This document shows positions 7,257-18,583 of a DNA stretch of 64,000 nt, one piece after another. Numbering within the stretch: position 1 is the first letter of the stretch; each line of letters starts with the position of its first letter. Made by a program: the position numbers and the translations under genes. The notes under the pieces were generated by a model that was not told the origin of the DNA, ran no database searches, and was given only the letters and a program-made list of their open reading frames with translations. The DNA comes from Sphaerisporangium sp. (GTDB lineage Bacteria; Actinomycetota; Actinomycetes; Streptosporangiales; Streptosporangiaceae), in contig JAOPYI010000192.1 of assembly GCA_025964675.1 (NCBI GenBank), positions 1-64,000 of the forward strand, read 5' to 3'.

Positions 7257-7377
7257 ATTCGCTGACACCTTTCTTTCGTGTCTTGCCTGTTCGGAGCTCA
7301 TGTCAGGCCGTCGGGGCCGCGTAGACCGTCGAGGCTGTCGGACCTGGGTGATGCCGTGGAGGTAGCCGGGGGGGAGG

Positions 7378-8187
7378 TCATTTGAGGCCCGTGAGGACCA
7401 CCGATCGCACGATGTAGCGCTGGAAGAAGATGAAGATCGCGACCATGGGGATGAGAGCGATCAGGCTGCCGGCCATCATCAAGGTGTCGTCCACGCCGAC
7501 GGCCCCCTTGAGACCGGAGAGCGCGACCGTGATCACCCTGGTGTCGTCGCCGCTCGTGATGATCAATGGCCACATGAAGTTGTTCCATGAGGAGATCACC
7601 GTGATGATCGCCAGCGTGCCGAGAGCGGGCCGGCTGAGCGGCAGGATGATCCGCCACAGGGTCGTGAGCGGCCCCGCCCCGTCTATGCGCGCCGCGTCCT
7701 CCAGCCCCGCCGGGATGCCCCGGAAGAACTGCCGCATCAGGAAGATCCCGTACGGCGTGCCGAGGAGGTACGGGACGAGCAGGCCGTACCAGGTGTTGAC
7801 CAGGTCGAGCTGGCGCATGATGAGGAACAGCGGGATGACCGTCACCGCGGTCGGCACCATCAGCGTGGCCATGTACAACCAGAACAGCGCCTCCCTGCCA
7901 CGGAACCGCATGCGCGCGAAGGCGTAGGCCGCGAAGGTCGTGAAGACCAGCTGGCCCGCCGTCAGCGCAGCCGTCATCACCAGCGTGTTGCCGAGAAAGT
8001 GCGGAAAGCCCGTGCCGAGCAACCGCTCGATGTTGCCGAGCGACGGCGGGAAGGCGGGCAGCCACGGCTTCGTCGCGTTGAGCTGGCCACGCGACTTGGA
8101 TGCGGTGAGCACCACGAGCAGGTACGGGAAGACCGATAGGAAGGCCCCGACGAGCAGAACCGCGTAGATCCCGAACTTCTTGAACAC
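7378..8187 (-). CDS. Carbohydrate ABC transporter permease, MalG type
   Basis: 269 aa, six predicted membrane helices starting near residue 8 (YAVLLVGAFLSVFPYL). The EAA loop that contacts the ATPase is clear (EDAARIDGAGP). The C-terminus ends on a short hydrophilic tail (VVLTGLK), as in other MalG/UgpE-like permeases. It follows the MalF-type gene after 12 bases and precedes the binding-protein gene after a 121-base gap that contains no gene. It forms the membrane channel with the MalF-type subunit. Confidence 0.94.
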   Translation of the reverse strand: MFKKFGIYAVLLVGAFLSVFPYLLVVLTASKSRGQLNATKPWLPAFPPSLGNIERLLGTGFPHFLGNTLVMTAALTAGQLVFTTFAAYAFARMRFRGREALFWLYMATLMVPTAVTVIPLFLIMRQLDLVNTWYGLLVPYLLGTPYGIFLMRQFFRGIPAGLEDAARIDGAGPLTTLWRIILPLSRPALGTLAIITVISSWNNFMWPLIITSGDDTRVITVALSGLKGAVGVDDTLMMAGSLIALIPMVAIFIFFQRYIVRSVVLTGLK

Positions 8188-8199
8188 CGATGCCCCCTC

Positions 8200-9150
8200 T
8201 CAGCTCAGGTCGTAGGTCGTGCGGCGGTTGAAGTAGCGCACCTGCACCAGCGTGACCGCCAGAATGATCACGAAGAGGATCACCGCCAGCGCCGACGCGT
8301 AGCCGAAGTCGAACTCCCTGAACGCGGTGGCGAAGATCTTGAAGTTGAACACCTCGGTGCCGTGGCTCGGCCCCCCGTCCGTCATCACGAAGACGGTGTC
8401 GAACACCTGGAAGGCCCCGATCATGTTCGTGACCAGCACGAAGAACATCGCCGGGTTCAGCAGTGGCAGGGTGATCGTGAAGAACCGCTGCCAGGACGTC
8501 GCGCCGTCCGTCGAAGCCGCGTCGTGCAGCTCCTTCGGGATCCCCTGCAGGCCCGCCAGGAAGAACAGCATGTTGTAGCCGGTGTGCTGCCAGATGTTGA
8601 CGAGCGCGACGGCGGGCAGGGCCCACGTGCTGTCCGAGAGCCACTCGGGGCCCTGGATGCCCACCACCGCCAGCGCGCTGTTGATGGCACCGTTGACCGG
8701 GTCGAAGATCCAGTCCCAGATGAGGCCCATCACGATCGGCGTGGCGATCCAGGGCACCACGAACAGGGCCCGGAAGACCTTCACGCCCTTCACTCGCTGG
8801 TTCAGCAGGACGGCGAGGCAGAGCGCCAGCACGGTCTGCAGGGGTACGCACAGCAGCACGTACAGCACGGTGACGCCGAGCGAGTGGCTCACCGACGGGT
8901 CGGCGACGAGCTTCCGGTAGTTGTCGAGGCCCGTGAACGTCGGGTCGGACAGCAACCGCCAGTTGAAGAAGCTGAGGGCCGCCACGATCAGCACGGGAAG
9001 CAGGAGGAAGGCCACCACGCCGAACAGGCTGGGTGCGACGAAGAGGTAGGGGTACCAGCTGGTGAGCCGGCGACGGCGCGGCGCGGCCGGGGCGGCCGTC
9101 CTGCCGGGCGCAGCCTCCGAGCCGGCGACCTCGACCTGGGCCCGGCTCAC
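8200..9150 (-). CDS. Carbohydrate ABC transporter permease, MalF type
   Basis: 316 aa from a GTG at 9150 that overlaps the stop of the GH36 gene by 4 bases (GTGA). Longer in-frame extensions run through the GH36 coding region and look like shadow sequence. The N-terminal tail is basic (RRRRLTSWYPY) and leads into the first of six membrane helices. The EAA loop is LHDAASTDGAT. The C-terminal helix is followed by QVRYFNRR. It pairs with the MalG-type permease to import the sugar substrate of this operon. Confidence 0.92.
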   Translation of the reverse strand: MSRAQVEVAGSEAAPGRTAAPAAPRRRRLTSWYPYLFVAPSLFGVVAFLLLPVLIVAALSFFNWRLLSDPTFTGLDNYRKLVADPSVSHSLGVTVLYVLLCVPLQTVLALCLAVLLNQRVKGVKVFRALFVVPWIATPIVMGLIWDWIFDPVNGAINSALAVVGIQGPEWLSDSTWALPAVALVNIWQHTGYNMLFFLAGLQGIPKELHDAASTDGATSWQRFFTITLPLLNPAMFFVLVTNMIGAFQVFDTVFVMTDGGPSHGTEVFNFKIFATAFREFDFGYASALAVILFVIILAVTLVQVRYFNRRTTYDLS

Positions 9151-10514
9151 GAGTTCTCCGGCCCGGTGCCACCCGACGACGGCAGCCGCGCCGGCCCGGC
9201 GGGTTCGGGGCGGGTGGGCGTCATTAGGCGCCGGGTGGTCGCGAGACCCCACTCGTCGAGGGCGGCGATGGGATCGCTCGCGCCCCGGAGGCCTCCGCTT
9301 GACTCGACGTGCGCGGCCCATTCCTCGCGGGTCTCGACCTCGGGCCGCGCGATGAGGCAGTCGGGGTCGTTCACCCACCACCGGGCGTGCAGGAACTCGC
9401 GGGCCTCGCCGGTGAGCCGGGCGCCGAGCTGGCTTGGCTGACTGATGTCCCCGGAGCGGGGGAGCCGCCTCGGGGCGGTGTCGGGGCTCACCCGCATGAT
9501 GTCGACGAGCCCGAGGCTCGGCAGCAGCGGCGCCCCGCAGCCGTGAACCACGGCCTCAGGGCCGGTCGCCTCCCGGATCAGCTCCAGGCCGCGCCGGTAG
9601 GCCGTGATCGGGTCGACGTCGTCGTGCCGGCGGCCGTGCATGGCGCCGGCGTAGCAGTAGTCGAGCTTGAAGTGCGTGATCCCGAGGGCGGTGAGCTCGC
9701 GGAACACGGTGGCCAGGTGCTCGGCGGCTGCCGGGTGGGTGACGTCCAGCACGGCGAGGTCCTGGTCCCACATGTGCCCGGCGCTGACGCCGGGGACTGT
9801 CCAGTCGGGATGCTCCTCGAAGAGGCGGCTGTGCCTTCCCACGAGGTACGGCGCGACCCAGATGCCGGTCTTCCTGCCGCTCGCCGCGATGGCGCCGACC
9901 GCCCGCTCCAGGGATCCGAAGGTGGGCCGGATGTCGAGCCAGTCGCCGATGCCGGTCTCGTAGCCGTCGTCGATCAGGAAGAGGTCGAGGTCGATGCCAT
10001 GGCGGTCGGCGAGGGCGAGGTTCTCGGTCACGTCGGTCTCGGTGACCTTGTCCCAGTACCCGTACCAGGTGCACCAGAGCGGAGGGATGACCGAGATCGT
10101 GGGATTGACGGGCCCGGCCATCGTGTCGGCCCATCCGGCGAGCACGGTGTCCAGCGCTCCCTCGACCTGCCAGTGCCGCACGGGGCCGTCGGCCGAGATC
10201 ACCAGGGTGCCGCCCACCCGCCGCGCCCTGATGGAGGGCACGGTGAGATGGCCGAGAGCGGACCAGACGTGCACCGGCCCCCCGTCGCCGGGGTCGACGG
10301 CGACCAGGCCCTCGCCCTGGAACACGCCGGGCGGCACCGGGCTCTCGGGCCGGTAGGCCAGGACCTGGATGTTGGCGTCGGCAGCCCGGGGTGGTGTCTC
10401 GTCGAGCCGGTAGGCACCGGACGGGCTCCACGACTGCCAGCCGTGTTCGAAGACCAGGGCGTGCCGTTCATCGCACACGACCTCGCCGACGTCCGTGAAA
10501 TCCGCTCGCGACAT
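9147..10514 (-). CDS. Alpha-galactosidase-like glycoside hydrolase family 36
   Basis: 455 aa from the ATG at 10514, which has GAGAGGA 8 bases upstream. A GTG two codons earlier is possible but would overlap that site. An N-terminal beta-sandwich (GWQSWSPSG near 25-34) precedes a melibiase barrel with FLIDDGYE, the nucleophile motif FKLDYC (D285) and the acid/base motif RVSPDTAP (D345). No signal peptide is present, so it acts inside the cell. It is the first gene of the operon, which implies the imported substrate carries a terminal alpha-galactoside or a related sugar. It is shorter than classical GH36 tetrameric enzymes (about 700 aa), as in several actinobacterial GH36 proteins. Confidence 0.9.
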   Translation of the reverse strand: MSRADFTDVGEVVCDERHALVFEHGWQSWSPSGAYRLDETPPRAADANIQVLAYRPESPVPPGVFQGEGLVAVDPGDGGPVHVWSALGHLTVPSIRARRVGGTLVISADGPVRHWQVEGALDTVLAGWADTMAGPVNPTISVIPPLWCTWYGYWDKVTETDVTENLALADRHGIDLDLFLIDDGYETGIGDWLDIRPTFGSLERAVGAIAASGRKTGIWVAPYLVGRHSRLFEEHPDWTVPGVSAGHMWDQDLAVLDVTHPAAAEHLATVFRELTALGITHFKLDYCYAGAMHGRRHDDVDPITAYRRGLELIREATGPEAVVHGCGAPLLPSLGLVDIMRVSPDTAPRRLPRSGDISQPSQLGARLTGEAREFLHARWWVNDPDCLIARPEVETREEWAAHVESSGGLRGASDPIAALDEWGLATTRRLMTPTRPEPAGPARLPSSGGTGPENS

Positions 10515-10558
10515 CAGCACATCCTCTCAAGCTGAGCCAGTTACGAAGGAGCCCATCA

Positions 10559-10594
10559 TTAGTAGCACTGAGCCGAAAGGGGGTCAACGGTCAA
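10559..10594 (-). promoter_or_regulatory. Promoter and tandem repeat upstream of the sugar operon
   Basis: On the minus strand a -35 TTGACC (10582-10587) is separated by 17 bases from a -10 TACTAA (10559-10564). This would start transcription about 38 bases before the GH36 ATG. GTTGACC occurs twice in direct repeat (10582-10595), overlapping the -35. It is a plausible operator for the divergent ROK regulator. No equally good promoter was found for the regulator itself, although TATATT lies just upstream of it. Confidence 0.65.
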
Positions 10595-10690
10595 CTTTTT
10601 CAGCAAAATGGGGGTTTTCCCGGTCTCCCACCCTTCGGTGATCGCTGTCATAATCGGGACTTAACGAGGAGACCTATATTAGGGACGCCC

Positions 10691-11890
10691 ATGTCGAATC
10701 CTCCGCCGAGCGGCGGCGACCTGTCACGGCTACGGCAGCTCAACTCCCTGGCCGCGATCAGGGCCCTGCGCGGCGCCGAGCCGCTCACGCTGTCGGTGCT
10801 CGCCGAGCGGACCGGCCTGTCCCGCCCGTCCACCAAGGACGTCATGGACGAGCTCGTCGGGCTGGGCTGGGTCGAGGAGGTCGCCCCGGTCGGAGGGACG
10901 ATGGGTCGCCCGGCGCGGCGCTACCGCTTCCGGGCCGACGGCGGCCATGTCGTGGGCATCGACATAGGAGCGCACAAGGTGCTGGCGGCCCTCGCCGACC
11001 TCGACGGCAACGTCCTCGCCGAGACCCGCCACACCGTCGACCCGGACACCCCGACGGAGGCACGGCTCGACGCCATCGACAAGGCCGTCTCCGGCTGCCT
11101 GGCCCTCGCGGGCCTGACCAGGGAGGACCTGTGGGCGGTAACCGCCGGCACCACGGGCCTCGTCGACCCGAAAGGCCGGATCGCGCTGTCGACGGCGATC
11201 CTCAACTGGTCCGGAGTGGACCTGGCGGGCCGGCTCGCCCGGATGTTCCCGTGCAGGGTCCTCGTGGAGAACGACAGCAAGCTGGCCGCGCTCGCGGAGT
11301 GGCAGCGCGGCGTGGCCCGTGGGGCGAGCGATGTGCTGTTCCTGCACGCGGGACGGCGTACGGGGGCGGGGCTGATCGTCGACGGCAAGCTGCACCGCGG
11401 GTTCGCCGGGTCGGCGGGCGAGATCAGCCTGCTCCCCCTCTCGCAGTGGTCCGCGGGCTCGGCGCCCCTCGACGACAGCCCCGTGGTCCCCAAGGGAACG
11501 CCGCCGCAGGACGCCGCGAGATACGTCCTGTCGGCGGCACGCGACGGGAACTCGGCCGCGATGGAGTCGGTCGAGCGCTACGTCGAGGTGCTCGCGCTCG
11601 GCGCCGCCATGATGGTGCTGACCGTCGACCCGGAGCTCGTCATCCTGGGCGGGAGCTTCTCCCGGGCCGCCGACGTGCTGCTGCCGCCACTGCGCCGCCG
11701 CCTGGCGGAGGTGTGCATGCGCCCCCCGGAGCTGCGCACCTCCACCCTCGGCGACGAGTGCGTGGTCCTCGGCGGCATCGGTCTCGCCATCAACCACCTG
11801 GACAGCCGGCTCTTCGGAGCCGAAGGTGGCTCCGCCACGCCGCTCCCCCAGCACGCCGACGCCAAGGTGACCTCCATCGCCTCGCGCTGA
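10691..11890 (+). CDS. ROK-family transcriptional regulator
   Basis: 399 aa. A winged helix-turn-helix occupies about residues 15-65 (LAAIRALRG, LAERTGLSRPST). It is followed by the ROK sugar-kinase-like domain (about 82-375) with GIDIGAHKV, the DxG loop DLDGNV, and NDSKLAA. The usual ROK zinc motif (CxCGxxGC) is absent: GSAGEISLLPLSQW stands where it would be expected. Divergent transcription from the GH36-ABC-PhoD-GH27-GH20 operon suggests it represses that operon and responds to a sugar derived from the substrate. Confidence 0.9.
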   Translation: MSNPPPSGGDLSRLRQLNSLAAIRALRGAEPLTLSVLAERTGLSRPSTKDVMDELVGLGWVEEVAPVGGTMGRPARRYRFRADGGHVVGIDIGAHKVLAALADLDGNVLAETRHTVDPDTPTEARLDAIDKAVSGCLALAGLTREDLWAVTAGTTGLVDPKGRIALSTAILNWSGVDLAGRLARMFPCRVLVENDSKLAALAEWQRGVARGASDVLFLHAGRRTGAGLIVDGKLHRGFAGSAGEISLLPLSQWSAGSAPLDDSPVVPKGTPPQDAARYVLSAARDGNSAAMESVERYVEVLALGAAMMVLTVDPELVILGGSFSRAADVLLPPLRRRLAEVCMRPPELRTSTLGDECVVLGGIGLAINHLDSRLFGAEGGSATPLPQHADAKVTSIASR

Positions 11891-11977: not shown

Positions 11978-12139
11978 GCGTCCAGCTCACCGGCGGCAGG
12001 GGGACTTGGTGATGCCCACCGCGCGGTGGTCGCCTTCCCCCACCACCCTACGATCGCCGTGAAACCATGATCTATGCGGAACTAAGGGTGAGACTGTTCC
12101 GATAGTGTGCCGCTCGCAGACCGCGAGGGAGGTGGCAGG

Positions 12140-13675
12140 GTGACCGAACCCGGGGCGCCCGGAGTGCCGGGCTACGAGGTCCTCGGGATCCTCGGGCAGG
12201 GTGGCTTCGGCGTGGTCTACCGCGCCCGGCAGCTCGCCGTGCGCCGCGAGGTCGCGCTCAAGGTCGACAACCGCGTGCTGGTCTCCGAACGTGACCGGCG
12301 GCGGTTCATGCGGGAGGTCACCTCGGCCGGTGCCCTGTCCGGGCATCCCCACGTCGCCGACGTCTACGACGCCGGCGTTCTCGGCGACGGCCGGCCGTAC
12401 ATGGTGCTGGAGCTGTGCCCGGGCGGCTCGCTGGCCGACCGGCTGCGTGAGCGGGGCCCGCTGAGCCCTGACGAGGTACGCGACATCGGCGTGCGGATCG
12501 CCGACGCGCTGGCGGCCGCGCACGCCGCGGGGGTGCTCCACCGCGACGTCAAGCCGGCCAACATCCTGGTCAACGGCTACGGCATGGTCGCGCTGTCAGA
12601 CTTCGGACTGGCCACCACGGCGCACGCCGAGGGCGACATGTCGGTGACCCGCGAGTCGCTGACACCGGCCTTCGGCCCGCCGGAGGCGTTCGAGCTGGCG
12701 GAGCCGAGTCCCGCCGGTGACGTCTATTCGCTGTGCGCCACGCTCTACGCCCTGCTCAACGGCCGGCCGCCGCGCTTCCCCGAGGGCGGGGTGGTCAACA
12801 TCGCGATGATCATGGCGCTGCATCGCCGGCCGGTCCCGGAGATCCCCGGGGTGCCGCCGGAGCTGACCGCCGTCCTGCGGGCGGGGATGGCCAGCGATCC
12901 CCGCAGGCGCATCCCGTCCGCCGCGGCCCTGAGAGACGCGCTCTCGGCTATTGCCGCCTCGACGCTGTCGGGCTCGCGCGACGCGCCCGCGCCCGTACAC
13001 GCAACCGGCCCCGGTGCCCGGGCCGTGTCGGCGACGCAACCTCCGCCGGTGGCGAGGACGCATTCGCAGTCGGGGCTGTACATCGTGGCGGCCGGCCTGT
13101 TCGCCCTGCTGCTGACCGTCGGGGCGGCCATCATGTTCCACGAGGGCCAGAACTCCCCGATCATCGGCGTCGCCCCCGTGCCGAGCGGGCAGGTGAGCCA
13201 GGCCGGCCCCGTGAGCCCCTCAACCATCGCGACGGAGGTCTCCACGGGGCAGGTCAGGACCACCACCGCGAACTGCCCTGCGGCGGCGGTCGCCGGCGCG
13301 GAGGCCGCCTGCGGCCAGGAGGCCGAGTGCTGGGGCGGCATCGTGTCCATCGCGGGATCGGTCACGGTCAAGAGGCGCGGCTGCGAGGAGACCCACTCCT
13401 GGGAGACGTTCGCCGTGGCGAAGCTGCCCGTGGACACGATCACGTACGACATGAACGACCTCGAGGTGCATCCGGTGGTGAAGAAGCTCTGCTCGATGCC
13501 GGTCCTCATCCAGTCGAGGTACGGCACGGCCAAGGCCATCGCCCCCGGGAAGTGGATGATCTCCGTGCTGCCGCCCAGCCCGGAGGCGTTCAAGGAAGGC
13601 GTCCGGATCTACCGGTGCGTCGGCGGCGTGGTCGGCCGCGACCGCCCGGGCACGTACTTCAGGCCGCTGACCTGA
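12140..13675 (+). CDS. Membrane-anchored Ser/Thr protein kinase with extracytoplasmic Cys-rich domain
   Basis: 511 aa from the GTG at 12140, chosen because GGGAGG lies 7 bases upstream. The kinase domain (about 11-275) has the glycine loop GQGGFG (19-24), K41, HRDVKPAN (D136) and DFG (D154). A Pro/Ala linker leads to one membrane helix (about 313-336). The outer domain of about 175 residues has six Cys spread as NCP, ACG, ECW, GCE, LCS and RCV, suggesting disulfides. There are no PASTA repeats. It is a receptor-like kinase and its ligand is unknown. It precedes the split nuclease-helicase cluster on the same strand and shares an upstream element with it, so a functional link is possible. Confidence 0.9.
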   Translation: MTEPGAPGVPGYEVLGILGQGGFGVVYRARQLAVRREVALKVDNRVLVSERDRRRFMREVTSAGALSGHPHVADVYDAGVLGDGRPYMVLELCPGGSLADRLRERGPLSPDEVRDIGVRIADALAAAHAAGVLHRDVKPANILVNGYGMVALSDFGLATTAHAEGDMSVTRESLTPAFGPPEAFELAEPSPAGDVYSLCATLYALLNGRPPRFPEGGVVNIAMIMALHRRPVPEIPGVPPELTAVLRAGMASDPRRRIPSAAALRDALSAIAASTLSGSRDAPAPVHATGPGARAVSATQPPPVARTHSQSGLYIVAAGLFALLLTVGAAIMFHEGQNSPIIGVAPVPSGQVSQAGPVSPSTIATEVSTGQVRTTTANCPAAAVAGAEAACGQEAECWGGIVSIAGSVTVKRRGCEETHSWETFAVAKLPVDTITYDMNDLEVHPVVKKLCSMPVLIQSRYGTAKAIAPGKWMISVLPPSPEAFKEGVRIYRCVGGVVGRDRPGTYFRPLT

Positions 13676-13799: not shown

Positions 13800-14687
13800 G
13801 TGAGTGAAACGCTGGACGATCTCGAGGAGCGGATCAACGAGCTCCGTGGAGAGATCCGGCGGGCCGTGCGCGCCCGCGAGGGCATCCTCGCCAGGTCGCT
13901 CCGCGCCGAGCTGAGAACGGCCGAGCGGGCATGGGACCACGCCGTGGCCGCCAGCGAGCCTCCCGGCACCGACGAGCCGCCGCCCGGCTCCCTGCTTCCC
14001 GTACGCGAGCAGGTCCACCAGGCGCTCACCCTGCTGGGCGTGCCGGCCGCGGCCAAGATGATCGTGGCGGTGCACGGCGCGCTGCGCGCGGGCTCGCTCA
14101 AGGGCGCGCAGCTCACGAGCCTGCGCAGGGACGAGGAGCGCTCCTTCGGAACCTCGCCTTTCGCCCGGCCCTACTACCTCTGCGCCGCGCTCACCGACCG
14201 CCTCTCCGCCTCCCGCGGGCTGCTGGCGGTCAGCACGTGGCCGCTGGAGCAGCGCGTCGTCGGCCCCCTCAGCCCGCGCGTCGACTTCCTCACCACGGCC
14301 ATCCGCGTGGCCGAGCACATCCTCAGGCTCGCCGAGACCGGCGAGCAGGCCCCGCCGAGCGCCCAGCGGCTGCTGTCCAGGCTGGCGCAGAACATCCCCG
14401 GGGCCACGCCGTACGGCCACGGCACGCGACACCTCGCCACGGGTCTCACCCTCGCAGGCCCGGGCACGGCCTCGGGTGCGGGTGTGGCGGGAGGTTTCGC
14501 CGAGCCCGATCCGGCCGTCGTGGTCAAGGCGGCCCAGGCGGAGCTCGGCGTCCACGCCGCCGCCGACGCCGCGGCCCGCGCGGAGATCGCCGGTCGCGCC
14601 CGCGACCGGCTCCGTGACGCCGAGCGCCTGTTCGGCGGCACGATGCTGAGCCTGGCCCGCACCCGCGCGGCCGGCAGAGAGGTGTGA
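13800..14687 (+). CDS. Unknown coiled-coil protein, first gene of the split nuclease-helicase cluster
   Basis: 295 aa, GTG start with no ribosome site, consistent with a leaderless message. Residues 1-50 are strongly charged and heptad-like (LDDLEERINELRGEIRRAVR), a likely coiled coil. Residues about 70-165 (VREQVHQALTLLGV, RRDEERSFG, PYYLCAALT, then a short LAVSTWPLEQRVV strand) look like a winged-helix fold, which is inference only. The remainder is Ala-rich helix. I do not recognise the family. Its stop is one base from the next GTG, and the following two junctions overlap by 4 bases, so the four genes are surely co-transcribed. A DNA-binding or adaptor role for the complex is a guess. Confidence 0.85.
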   Translation: MSETLDDLEERINELRGEIRRAVRAREGILARSLRAELRTAERAWDHAVAASEPPGTDEPPPGSLLPVREQVHQALTLLGVPAAAKMIVAVHGALRAGSLKGAQLTSLRRDEERSFGTSPFARPYYLCAALTDRLSASRGLLAVSTWPLEQRVVGPLSPRVDFLTTAIRVAEHILRLAETGEQAPPSAQRLLSRLAQNIPGATPYGHGTRHLATGLTLAGPGTASGAGVAGGFAEPDPAVVVKAAQAELGVHAAADAAARAEIAGRARDRLRDAERLFGGTMLSLARTRAAGREV

Positions 14688-14688
14688 G

Positions 14689-15798
14689 GTGGACCGACTC
14701 GACCTGCTGCGCGGCCCGGTGCCGCCGCGCCCCCACGACGCCCGGGCCATCGCCGCCCTGGCGGCCAACCCCGGGTGCGCGCGCCGCGCCGTGCTGGACG
14801 CCGCCGGGATCGACAAGGACGCCACCGCCACCCACCTGGGATTTCCCGCGCCGTTCGGCCAGTCGCCCTTCGCCATCACCCGCGGCAACGTCTTCGAGTC
14901 GCTGGTCAAGGAGAGCGGCTGCGCGGAGCTGCTGAGGCTGCTCCGCGACATCCTCGACCTGCCGATCCCGCTCGCGGCGTACAACGACCTCGGCGACGTC
15001 GGCGGGAACCCTTCGGCCCACCTGCGCCACTCCCACACCCGCAAGCTCATCGACCGGGCGGCCCGCGACGCCGACGACGCGGGCACGCTGTACGACCATC
15101 CGCTTCTCAGGCTGGACATCGCCGGTCACAGCTCCTATCTGGAACCCGACGTCGTGGCGTTCCGGCTGGGCGGCCTGTTCCGCATCGTGGAGATCAAGTC
15201 GTTCGCCGTCGTCGACGGGCAGGCCGAGCCCGACAAGGTCGCGGCGGCCGCCCGCCAGGCCGCGGTGTACGTGCTGGCGCTCAGAAACCTGCTGCGGGAA
15301 CTCGGCCACGATCCGGGGCGCGTGTCCCACGACGTCGTGCTGGTGTGCCCGGAGAACTTCGCGAACCGGCCGACCGCGACGCTGGTGGACGTGCGCAGGG
15401 AGCTGGCCGTGCTGAAGAGGCAGCTCGCCCGCATGACCCGGGTGGGAACGATGGTGGACGCTCTCCCGCCGGAGCTGACCTTCGACCTGGCGCGCGACGC
15501 CGACGGCGTGCCGACCCGCCCGGTGGCGGAGCTGCGCGAGGCGGTGCGCGGCGTCGACGCCAGGTACGCCCCCGACTGCCTGTCGACCTGCGACCTGTGC
15601 TTCTTCTGCAGGGACGAAGCCTCGGCCGAGGGCTCCACCGACCTGCTGGGGCGGCAGGTCCGCGACGCGCTCGGCGGGGTGGCGACCGTGGCGGAGGCGC
15701 TGGGCCTCGCGGACGGCTCCCTCACCCCGGACGAGGGCCAGGAGGAGATCGCCCGCCTTCTCCGCCTCGCCGACCGCATCTACGCCGAGGTCTCGTGA
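14689..15798 (+). CDS. Cas4/RecB-like PD-(D/E)XK nuclease with probable Fe-S cluster
   Basis: 369 aa, GTG start with AGAGG upstream. The nuclease core reads EPDVVAF (D154), then VEIKSF (E168, K170), then RQAAVY (Q190), matching the D-(E)xK-Q pattern of RecB/Cas4-type nucleases. Cys30 near the N-terminus and a C-terminal cluster C297-x3-C301-x2-C304-x2-C307 resemble the split four-Cys 4Fe-4S clasp of Cas4, AddB and Dna2. It should cut single-stranded or flap DNA, in partnership with the helicase two genes downstream. No Cas genes or repeats are nearby, so a CRISPR adaptation role is unlikely. The stop overlaps the next start by 4 bases. Confidence 0.82.
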   Translation: MDRLDLLRGPVPPRPHDARAIAALAANPGCARRAVLDAAGIDKDATATHLGFPAPFGQSPFAITRGNVFESLVKESGCAELLRLLRDILDLPIPLAAYNDLGDVGGNPSAHLRHSHTRKLIDRAARDADDAGTLYDHPLLRLDIAGHSSYLEPDVVAFRLGGLFRIVEIKSFAVVDGQAEPDKVAAAARQAAVYVLALRNLLRELGHDPGRVSHDVVLVCPENFANRPTATLVDVRRELAVLKRQLARMTRVGTMVDALPPELTFDLARDADGVPTRPVAELREAVRGVDARYAPDCLSTCDLCFFCRDEASAEGSTDLLGRQVRDALGGVATVAEALGLADGSLTPDEGQEEIARLLRLADRIYAEVS

Positions 15799-17264
15799 GC
15801 ACGCTCGCCGCCCTGGCGCGCCTGCGCGCCCTCCAGACCGGTACGGCGAAGCGGCTCGCCACGGTGCGCCACTGCCACCTGTCCGAGCGGCCCATGGTCT
15901 TCATCCCGCTCCGGCTGGCGGGCGAGGCCGCCGCGCCGCTGGCCGCGATGGCGGGCACCGACCCCGCCCGTCCCCGGCTGCTCGTGGTGCCCCAGCCGCG
16001 CGACCGTGACCTGCGGTTCGCCTTCACCGCCGAGCTGGCTGAGATCCTCCTGCCCTACGTCGAAGGCCTGCAGAAGGCGACGGAGACGGTGGAGCGGCGC
16101 GGCGCCGAGCCGTACGAGCGCTGCCTGGACGCCCCGCAGCTCATCGTCCCCAACCGCGGCGCGGTGGCGTTCGTCCACATGCTGGGACGCTCGACCCGGT
16201 TCCGCCGCGCCGAGGGGCCGTACGCCGTGCACCCGTCGGTGCCCGTGCTGGGCCGCTGGCTCACCTTCCTCGCCCAGCGGGCGCAGTACCCCGGGTCGGC
16301 GGTGCTGCTCGCGGCCACCGAGGCGCTGTCCCTGCACTGGGCCACCGGGCAGAGCATGCTGGAGGACGCGAACCTCGCGTCCCTTTTAGGGTGGATCGAC
16401 CCGCCTGCCGGCATGACCGGGGCGAGCGCCGCCCGGGAGGCGGAGGACCCTCTGGTCTGGCCGCCCGCCGGGCCCGCGACCGACCCGGGCTTCGACACCG
16501 AGGTCCTCGTGCCCGCCATCCGGGCGTACGAGCAGAGGCCGACCGAGCGGGCCGCCGCCCGCGTGGGCGAGGCGGTGCGAACCCAGCTCGAGCCGACCTG
16601 GGGGCTGATGTGGCGGGCCATCGATCTACTCGGCGGGCTGCCCGCCGGCCCCGGGACCGCCGCCCGCTGGGAGGCCGATCGGGCGTCGTTCACGAACTTC
16701 ACCGCGCAACTCGCCGAGGGCGGGCCGCCCCAGCCGAAGCGGGACGGCGCGGTCGGCGCGGCCTCGCGGCTGGCCCGCATGGAACGCGCGCAGGCCTCGT
16801 ACGACGCCCAGCGGGCCTACGACGATCCCCTGGTCATGGCGGGCCACCGCCTGACGGGCGAGGCGTTCACCGGCACGGTCGTGGCCACCGACCCCGACCA
16901 CACCGAGGGTGAGGGCAGGGGGCGCAAGCTCCGGCCACTGCTCACGATCCGCACTACCGACCCGGCACGGCTCGCGCCCGGCGCGCGGCTCGGCACGCCC
17001 GAGCGGCGCGGCCAGCAGGCCGAGGTCGTCGAGATCGCCGGTGGGCTTGTCACACTGAAGATCATCAAGGGGATGGGGCGCGGCAAGGCGGCGACGCCCG
17101 GCGCGGTGCCGGAGGTCGGCGAGCGCGTGTGCTACGCCGCGCTCAGCGACGAGTTCCAGCCGCCGGCGAGCCTGCCCGCTCCCGAGGACACCCCGTGGAC
17201 GCACGGCGGTCCCCCGCCTGAGCACGTCCCCGCCGACGAGGATCCGGAGGAGGAGTGGTCATGA
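15795..17264 (+). CDS. Unknown 489-aa protein with C-terminal beta-barrel-like region (split Dna2-like cluster)
   Basis: GTG start at 15795 overlaps the nuclease stop by 4 bases. Longer frames upstream are shadows of the nuclease gene. Residues 1-330 are unrecognised. They include RHCHLSERPMVFIPLRLAGE near 24-43, probably a folded domain, and long Ala/Arg helices. Residues about 353-455 (GTVVATD, RPLLTIRTTD, LAPGARLG, VVEIAGGLVTLKII, VGERVCYAAL) alternate like the barrel inserted in SF1B helicases such as Dna2 and Upf1. The tail is acidic (DEDPEEEWS). Codon 198 is TTA, very rare in this DNA and in Streptomyces a sign of bldA-dependent translation. It may hold DNA or join nuclease and helicase. 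Confidence 0.82.
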   Translation: MSTLAALARLRALQTGTAKRLATVRHCHLSERPMVFIPLRLAGEAAAPLAAMAGTDPARPRLLVVPQPRDRDLRFAFTAELAEILLPYVEGLQKATETVERRGAEPYERCLDAPQLIVPNRGAVAFVHMLGRSTRFRRAEGPYAVHPSVPVLGRWLTFLAQRAQYPGSAVLLAATEALSLHWATGQSMLEDANLASLLGWIDPPAGMTGASAAREAEDPLVWPPAGPATDPGFDTEVLVPAIRAYEQRPTERAAARVGEAVRTQLEPTWGLMWRAIDLLGGLPAGPGTAARWEADRASFTNFTAQLAEGGPPQPKRDGAVGAASRLARMERAQASYDAQRAYDDPLVMAGHRLTGEAFTGTVVATDPDHTEGEGRGRKLRPLLTIRTTDPARLAPGARLGTPERRGQQAEVVEIAGGLVTLKIIKGMGRGKAATPGAVPEVGERVCYAALSDEFQPPASLPAPEDTPWTHGGPPPEHVPADEDPEEEWS

Positions 17265-18583
17265 CAGCGCCCATGACGGGGAAGGACGTCTCTCCGGGGC
17301 TCGAGGCGGCGACCGTGGTCGACGCCGTGCTCGCCGACCTTCCGCGGCACCGTGGCGTGGTCGTCGACTCGCCACCGGGCGCGGGCAAGTCCACGCTGGT
17401 GGTACGGGCCGCCGGGCACCTGGCCGCCGCCGGCGAACCACTGATGATCATCGCTCAGACCAACGAGCAGGTCGACGACCTCATCGTCCGGCTGGCGGCC
17501 GAGCATCCCGGCCTGCCGATCGGGCGGCTCTCCGCCGCCGACTACCTCGTGCCGGAGAGGGTCATGGGCAAGGCGAGCGTCGGCACCAAGCTCCCCGAGC
17601 TCGGGGACCCCGCTGTGGTGGTCGCCACCGCGGACAAGTGGGCCTGGGTCGGCGACCGCAGGTGGCCGTGGGCCATCGTGGACGAGGCCTACCAGATGCG
17701 CTCGGACAAGCTGCTGCGCATCGCCGGGCTGTTCGAGCGGGCGCTGTTCGTCGGCGACCCCGGCCAGCTCGACCCGTTCTCGATCGTGGAGGGCGAGCGC
17801 TGGGCGGGCCTGTCGTGGGACCCGCTCCAGAGCGCGGTGGCGGTGCTGCTGCGCCACAACCCCGGCCTGCCCGTGCACCGGCTCCCGGTCTCCTGGAGGC
17901 TGCCCGCCACGGCCGCCCCCGTGGTGTCGGAGGCGTTCTACCCCTTCACCGGGTTCAAGGCCGGCACCGGGCCCGGCGAGCGGCGCCTGTCGTTCGCGGT
18001 GCAGGGCATGCGCACGGCGTACGACCTCGCTCTGGAGGAGGCGGCGGCCTCCGGCTGGGCGCTGTACGAGCTGCCGAGCCGGCACACCGTGCGCACGGAC
18101 GCCGAGGCCGTACAGGCCGTGGCCGTGCTGGCCACGCGACTCCTGCAGAGGGCGCCCCTCACGTTCTCCGAGCGGGGCGAGCGGCCGGTCACCCCCGAGC
18201 GCATCGCCGTCGGCGCGGCGCACCGCGACCAGGTGGCGGCGATCCAGGCCGCCGGGCTGCCCGCCGGCGTCACCGTGGACACCGCGAACCGCCTGCAGGG
18301 CCGGGAGTACGACGTCACGATCATCCTGCACCCCCTGTCGGGACGCAGGGACGCCACCGCGTTCCACCTGGAGTCGGGACGGCTGTGCGTGCTCACCTCG
18401 CGGCACCGGCACGCCTGCGTCGTGGTCGCCCGCGCGGGGATCCCCGAACTGCTCGACGCCCACCCGTCTGCCGACTCGGTGCAGCTGAACGTGCCGGTGA
18501 AGTTCCCCGACGGGTGGGAGGCCAACCAGGCCGTGCTCGCCCACCTCGCCAAGCACCGCGTCGAGGCGGCGCCGTTCCGCTGA
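17261..18583 (+). CDS. Superfamily 1B DNA helicase (Dna2/Upf1-like ATPase)
   Basis: 440 aa from the ATG at 17261, which overlaps the previous stop (ATGA) and has GGAGGAGG just upstream. Helicase motifs in order: I SPPGAGKST (37-45), Ia AQTNEQVD, II IVDEA (D141-E142), III VGDPGQLDP (164-172), SWRLP near 210, V TANRLQGREYD and VI TSRHRHA. The protein is compact and lacks the accessory barrel usually found in this class, which may be supplied by the preceding gene. ATP-driven unwinding would feed DNA to the Cas4-like nuclease encoded upstream. It ends the cluster. Confidence 0.88.
   Translation: MTAPMTGKDVSPGLEAATVVDAVLADLPRHRGVVVDSPPGAGKSTLVVRAAGHLAAAGEPLMIIAQTNEQVDDLIVRLAAEHPGLPIGRLSAADYLVPERVMGKASVGTKLPELGDPAVVVATADKWAWVGDRRWPWAIVDEAYQMRSDKLLRIAGLFERALFVGDPGQLDPFSIVEGERWAGLSWDPLQSAVAVLLRHNPGLPVHRLPVSWRLPATAAPVVSEAFYPFTGFKAGTGPGERRLSFAVQGMRTAYDLALEEAAASGWALYELPSRHTVRTDAEAVQAVAVLATRLLQRAPLTFSERGERPVTPERIAVGAAHRDQVAAIQAAGLPAGVTVDTANRLQGREYDVTIILHPLSGRRDATAFHLESGRLCVLTSRHRHACVVVARAGIPELLDAHPSADSVQLNVPVKFPDGWEANQAVLAHLAKHRVEAAPFR

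Follow-up and report, generated by a model that had tools for sequence, protein, structure and literature searches.

Four adjoining genes, here called A to D, were analysed in the window, which is the whole stretch of 64,000 nucleotides read along the forward strand of contig JAOPYI010000192.1 of Sphaerisporangium sp. The results point, with a probability somewhat better than even, to one multi-subunit DNA-end resection machine, A-B-C-D, which is chromosomal by default and has been recruited by defence loci. A preliminary description made from the letters of the window had placed four open reading frames (ORFs) with short junctions at 13800-18583, and the ORF check bears out both the coordinates and the junctions (Table 1). 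A and B are separated by a single base, B and C overlap by 4 bases, and C and D overlap by 4 or 10 bases. The start of D is probably the ATG at 17261, which gives an ATGA overlap with the stop codon of C.

Table 1. Coordinates of genes A to D in the window and features of their products.
Gene	Position	Strand	Features
A	13800-14687	+	295 amino acids; begins with a coiled-coil-like stretch, followed by a conserved domain
B	14689-15798	+	369 amino acids; predicted Cas4/RecB/Dna2-type Fe-S PD-(D/E)XK nuclease
C	15795-17264	+	489 amino acids; matches no known family; helices 231-353, strands 357-448
D	17261-18583	+	predicted SF1B Upf1/Dna2-like helicase motor; frame open from 17255

Matches to B were found in 48/296 genomes of the class. 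At the 39 loci fetched through B, C adjoins B in 39/39, D is present in 37/39 (counting L071, in which D is broken) and A in 13/39. At the 80 loci fetched through C, which are the best 80 of at least 556 related stretches and all belong to Actinomycetota, B adjoins C in 80/80, with one B cut by a contig end, and D and A are present in 67/80 and 59/80, respectively; L140 of this set stops at a contig end. The two sets overlap, in that some loci come from the same genome. The presence of B in 48 genomes, together with its unbroken adjacency to C, indicates that the gene set is not a chance arrangement. The neighbourhood survey, a check named in the preliminary description, shows that the genes travel together and that their homologues are linked instead of being always unlinked housekeeping genes. 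The junctions are also tight in other genomes: B and C overlap by 4 bases in 19/39 and by 10 bases in 13/39 of the B-fetched loci, C and D overlap by 4 bases in 19/37 loci, and the gap between C and D exceeds 300 bases in 5 of the 67 D-bearing loci fetched through C. In L098 and L102, an ORF of 765-778 amino acids lies between C and D, and that of L098 matches GmrSD_N (1.1e-22).

The earlier statement that no named system has this composition holds within the databases searched. A, B and C match nothing named in Pfam, NCBIfam or PADLOC at E-values up to 1, where B gave no Cas_Cas4 match, C gave a sub-threshold match to Pfam DUF3239 (0.14), and no PADLOC family was matched by any of the three; searches of PDB sequences with A and C yielded nothing usable. 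No open-access paper describing the gene set was found, as judged by titles and the beginnings of abstracts.

Judged by its sequence, D is an Upf1/Dna2-like SF1B motor. It matches the Pfam families AAA_11, AAA_30 and AAA_12, and its profile matches the solved structures of SMUBP2 (6.3e-12), DNA2 (3.6e-11) and UPF1 (1.8e-6). Among 13 residues checked in its motifs, 12 are identical in 29/29 sequences, and the thirteenth is serine in 26 and threonine in 3, which bears out the SF1B helicase motifs proposed earlier. The encoding of the Fe-S nuclease and the motor by separate genes, also part of that description, is likewise supported. Only about 40 residues stand upstream of Walker A in D. The NCBIfam model PLuB_AAA was dropped as a marker, because it matches 278/296 genomes, as SF1 helicases generally would.

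Because D lies near SMUBP2, UPF1 and DNA2 alike, an RNA substrate is conceivable, and the gene set would then encode an RNA-processing complex. This explanation is very improbable, since B-type Fe-S PD-(D/E)XK nucleases act on DNA, and the enzymes found beside accessory copies of the operon also cut DNA. D further matches the PADLOC models MkoA (1.7e-5) and MkoC (1.3e-4), and in the window a kinase-like ORF with a membrane segment (12107-13675) lies directly upstream of A, so that a Mokosh-like defence set including this kinase can be imagined. We give this explanation almost no weight: the match is confined to the shared helicase core, the MkoA/MkoB composition of Mokosh is not found apart from this weak match of D, and just 3/80 loci (L073, L075 and L081) have a gene of the kinase cluster immediately before A in the same orientation.

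B is predicted, from its structural model and its motifs, to have a Cas4/RecB-type PD-(D/E)XK fold with a four-cysteine Fe-S cluster. The residues D154, E168-x-K170, Q190 and Y194 are present, and the core fold and the D, ExK and Q motifs of the RecB-like PD-(D/E)XK superfamily are found in B. The AlphaFold model has a mean predicted local distance difference test score (pLDDT) of 89.7, and the Foldseek search with this model gave Cas4 SSO0001 as the top match (9.2e-4), the sole one below 0.001; further matches were to MGME1, RecE, AdnA, EXO5, lambda exonuclease, ACE1, Cas4-Cas1-Cas2 and Dna2. PDDEXK_1 was matched by 11/66 members of the B family, with a best value of 0.0013. The preliminary description had listed Cys30 plus four C-terminal cysteines. 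Cysteines 30, 297, 301 and 307 are kept in 66/66 aligned sequences, whereas position 304 is cysteine in just 16/66, and the conserved set is therefore one plus three, not one plus four.

The model of C is confident (mean pLDDT of 89.2) and consists, in its later part, of long helices followed by a strand-rich region, where the preliminary description had placed a beta-barrel-like end. According to the part of the report on the mouse structure that was available (PMC4716839), an Fe-S nuclease in Dna2 is followed by a stalk and a barrel and then by an Upf1-like 1A/2A motor of approximately 450 residues, and a stalk and a barrel precede Walker A in both Dna2 and Ighmbp2. D has no stalk or barrel ahead of Walker A, and the later part of C is made up of helices and a strand-rich region, which makes a split Dna2 layout plausible; these parts of C come before gene D, as the stalk and the barrel come before the helicase of Dna2. 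To this extent the "split Dna2" of the preliminary description is partly supported, but no fold or sequence search ties C to Dna2. The comparison of C with viral structures gave nothing below 0.001, and no relatives of C were found in 50,697 phage records and a scan of viral contigs, a result that says nothing on defence either way.

Relatives of C and D also occur as a separate module. On plasmids of Rhodococcus, Mycobacterium, Mycolicibacterium, Xylanimonas and Cellulosimicrobium, a C-like protein of 388-404 amino acids (C') is followed by a D homologue (D'), and the pair comes after a VWA-like gene. C'-D' is present on a Euzebya plasmid, and Arthrobacter and Pseudarthrobacter have C' close to a D homologue but on the opposite strand. 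C' is near D' in 11/11 fetched loci, most of which are plasmids, and no B-like gene was seen in the annotated stretches of these modules that were read. The profiles of C and C' match with a probability of 96 and an E-value of 3.5e-9 over 250 columns, where controls gave values near 0.4; without the Euzebya member, the probability is 56 and the E-value 1.1e-4. The profile match and the steady proximity of C' to D' in modules whose annotated stretches hold no B indicate that C and the motor form a conserved pair. In six of the plasmid modules (L221, L222, L224, L259, L261 and L262), the order is a VWA-like gene, a small ORF, C' and D', and an AAA or MoxR ATPase usually precedes the VWA-like gene.

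These modules, and the lack of a fold or sequence link between C and Dna2, are what one would expect if C and D were a helicase pair unrelated to the Dna2 architecture, with some other barrel at the strand-rich end of C and B as an occasional partner. We regard this explanation as doubtful, because B adjoins C in 39/39 and 80/80 loci, the order of nuclease, C and motor is that of Dna2, and another protein family places a fused B-like domain before a D homologue. The N-terminus of this family (L226 and L264-L267) matches B with a probability of 95.6 and an E-value of 1.3e-8, its C-terminal part matches C weakly (0.024, or 0.0026 with a pooled profile), and the protein precedes a D homologue in 5/5 loci; type III genes are present in 2/5, and another two have type IIG-like genes next to them. 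In these loci and in L270-L273, the B-like protein has approximately 900 amino acids and the D homologue comes next, with restriction genes of type III or type IIG alongside; L270 also has a ZacC-like gene there.

A is an optional member of the set. In a rapidly built tree of C (92 sequences), which carries long-branch warnings, the presence of A changes at least 7 times, and A was found in 0/22 Streptomyces, Frankia-type and Micromonospora-type genomes by a search run without a positive control and with group names inferred from kin. The conserved domain of A, which holds SLRRDEERSF...RPYYLCAALT, is possibly a winged helix, and weak matches suggest a coiled coil at the N-terminus.

If the gene set is a resection machine, A-B-C-D would form a physical complex whose job is the resection of DNA ends. 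D would be a 5'-3' motor, a direction taken from its family, and C would bind D and supply the missing stalk and barrel in trans, which would complete the motor; C may also guide the single strand. B would cut the displaced strand, or just clamp it where the catalytic residues are lost, and A would be an optional DNA-binding loader. We know of no SF1B helicase whose barrel and stalk are supplied in trans by a second gene. The set of the window, inherited with the genus, would most likely resect broken ends, and accessory copies beside SbcCD, Wadjet and restriction enzymes would likely resect or destroy the ends that those enzymes make. If this is true, a widespread actinobacterial operon (at least 556 related stretches) encodes the parts of a DNA2-like machine one by one, and the motor, the clamp and the nuclease can be studied separately.

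The copy in the window stands in the chromosomal context of its genus. The order of a kinase gene, A to D, three reverse ORFs, a transporter gene and a regulator gene, and the sizes of these genes, match those of Sphaerisporangium corydalis (L073). The core locus of Streptomyces has a different but equally steady neighbourhood, whose genes are common to many genomes. Each of 115 loci was scored by the share of its flanking genes seen in at least 3 loci, and loci below 0.45 were classed as accessory and those above 0.5 as core. This cut was set before the PADLOC scans, at a time when the defence neighbours of some loci were already known; a first cut (below 0.2; 12 loci) had been dropped because it excluded loci sharing SbcCD. 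Eleven loci belonged to neither class or were excluded, among the latter L055, which nearly duplicates L054. The scans covered 112 of the 289 eligible flanking proteins of accessory loci and 125 of the 774 of core loci, the latter including proteins of the close kin of the window (L073, L074 and L075). Counted by family and not by protein, 86 PADLOC families were matched at 1e-20 by the sampled accessory flanks and 2 by the core flanks, the latter being mad3 (4 members matched) and mad2 (one). No Cas family is among the matches listed, which comprise 25/86 of the accessory and 2/2 of the core families.

The accessory copies in other genomes sit in defence islands. A pPIWI-RE gene lies beside L054, and L098 and L101 have restriction genes of type IV, of the GmrSD type and of type I. 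SbcCD adjoins the operon in 9/122 loci searched, a count that includes L072 and some repeated genomes; in some it follows D in line, and in some it is divergent from A. Wadjet is near the operon in 7 loci and is represented by types I-III, namely type II (L041 and L051), type III (L039 and L144), a weak type I (L136), and two Streptomyces plasmids with annotated JetD and DUF3375 genes, which we read as type I. On these two plasmids, SbcCD, A-B-C-D and Wadjet JetABCD stand side by side, with SbcCD in pieces in L190. A JetC3 assignment in L107 was withdrawn, because the sequences did not match, and the ORFs after SbcC in that locus are left unclassified. The "defence system" of the preliminary description is therefore supported for accessory relatives in other genomes (SbcCD, Wadjet, pPIWI-RE, restriction), but not for the window copy, which follows the gene order of its genus.

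It could nevertheless be argued that the four genes are dedicated to anti-phage or anti-plasmid defence in the window too, and that their conserved position marks an old, fixed defence locus. The islands in which accessory relatives accompany pPIWI-RE, type I/III/IV restriction and Wadjet genes agree with this, as do the patchy presence of the set (48/296 genomes) and the loss of catalytic residues in 8/66 B sequences, as can happen in fast-evolving defence genes. However, the gene order of the window is common to Sphaerisporangium corydalis, the core loci gave 2 PADLOC families among 125/774 flanking proteins, and the neighbours of the Streptomyces core locus are common to many genomes; dedicated defence in the window is accordingly considered unlikely.

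The link to SbcCD and Wadjet is the surprising part of the result. It allows the speculative proposal, which we hold only tentatively, that A-B-C-D-SbcD-SbcC and Wadjet are together a bacterial counterpart of the eukaryotic resection by Mre11-Rad50 and DNA2, with the barrel and the stalk in trans (for Wadjet and Rad50, see the available parts of PMC10586767 and PMC12624138). Wadjet would cut circular plasmids open, SbcCD would then open the ends, and resection and destruction of the linear DNA would fall to the split Dna2-like machine. The repeated placement beside SbcCD and three Wadjet types suggests what follows the opening of plasmids by Wadjet, and it connects defence against plasmids with end resection of the kind used in repair.

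Several results weigh against the resection machine or against its link to Wadjet. In Micromonospora and its kin, 12 of the C-fetched loci have B-C without an adjoining D, and in two such genomes that were checked, D lies 37 and 50 kilobases from B-C. The sequence profile of B has no significant match to Cas4 (hhalign probability of 1.3, E-value of 0.039), and its sequence-profile matches in PDB are two designed proteins. Since the sequence profiles are weak and one Foldseek match lies below 0.001, the fold assignment of B rests on the model and the motifs. In 8/66 B sequences (L052, L054, L096, L099, L100, L108, L132 and L142), D154, E168 and/or Q190 are lost and the Fe-S cysteines are kept, which indicates that nuclease activity is not always needed and that B may sometimes merely bind DNA. 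The Foldseek search with C gave nothing below 0.001; the best E-value is 0.051, and the weak matches, for example of the F1-ATPase type, are presumably barrel proteins. In a comparison with 13 fused enzymes, C also showed no link to the part that precedes their Walker A motif (0.099, with controls at 0.11-0.45). As for Wadjet, JetA2 occurs at 23 places in 13/28 genomes, 2 of them within operon loci, JetC3 occurs in 9/28 genomes with 2 of its places within operon loci, and most Wadjet genes of the genomes concerned do not adjoin the operon. Separately, a protein cluster ("cluster 3") considered as a substitute for D in Micromonospora was rejected, being a GGDEF-EAL-type protein by sequence, with D located elsewhere.

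By published description, the closest named relative of the operon is Bad of Geobacillus stearothermophilus. In the part of the report that was available (PMC7430649), Bad is a single-chain DNA2-like enzyme with a 5'-3' single-stranded DNA motor and an endonuclease; it has a RecB-type nuclease with a four-cysteine iron staple, a central part of unknown fold unlike that of eukaryotic DNA2, and the SF1B helicase last. Its gene adjoins that of a type III methyltransferase in Geobacilli, and a second class is reported in mycobacteria and Rhodococcus, which fused proteins of that family, detected in this analysis, may represent. Compared with that description of Bad, the operon shares the Fe-S RecB-type nuclease and the SF1B helicase, and relatives found here also lie beside type III genes (L226, L270 and L054), but it is made of three or four chains instead of one. 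With Dna2, as far as the available description goes, it shares the type of Fe-S nuclease with four cysteines (B) and the Upf1-like SF1B motor (D, 442 residues); it differs in its separate genes, in the extra protein A, and in C, whose helices and strands gave no Foldseek or profile link to Dna2. Across the loci fetched, no single ORF is matched by more than one of the four profiles, and because the operon lacks the single chain, it is placed as working like Dna2 and Bad and as a member of neither.

Other nuclease-helicase systems are more distant. The TM0106-type RecB nuclease-helicase fusions (L225, L227 and chromosomal kin) also combine a nuclease with an SF1 motor, which the D profile matches, but they are single chains of approximately 1,135-1,170 amino acids (two read), and B and C match none of them. 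Cas4 and the Argonaute-associated Cas4 (ACE1) have the fold matched by the model of B, whereas B has no significant Cas4 profile match, and the flank families listed above include no Cas family. AdnAB, AddAB and RecBCD share the idea of an end-resecting nuclease-helicase, and the AdnA nuclease is among the fold matches of B; in contrast, the operon has one Upf1-type SF1B motor and no UvrD-like motor subunit.

A few observations concern the surroundings of the gene set. In L058 (14621-15208) and Streptomyces kin, the core locus contains a PrimPol-like ORF (PF09250, 3.7e-7) two genes downstream of D, which may reflect shared synteny only. In the window, ORFs at 7298-11890 resemble, by eye, sugar ABC permeases, an alpha-galactosidase and a ROK-type regulator. 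On another contig of the same genome (C72, locus L072), the minus strand carries a piece of C near 10066-10482 and a piece of D at 7818-8330, which appear to be remains of a second C-D copy, namely the C-terminal part of C and the N-terminal part of D; a transposase-like ORF, IS110-like by eye, lies between them at 8413-9705.

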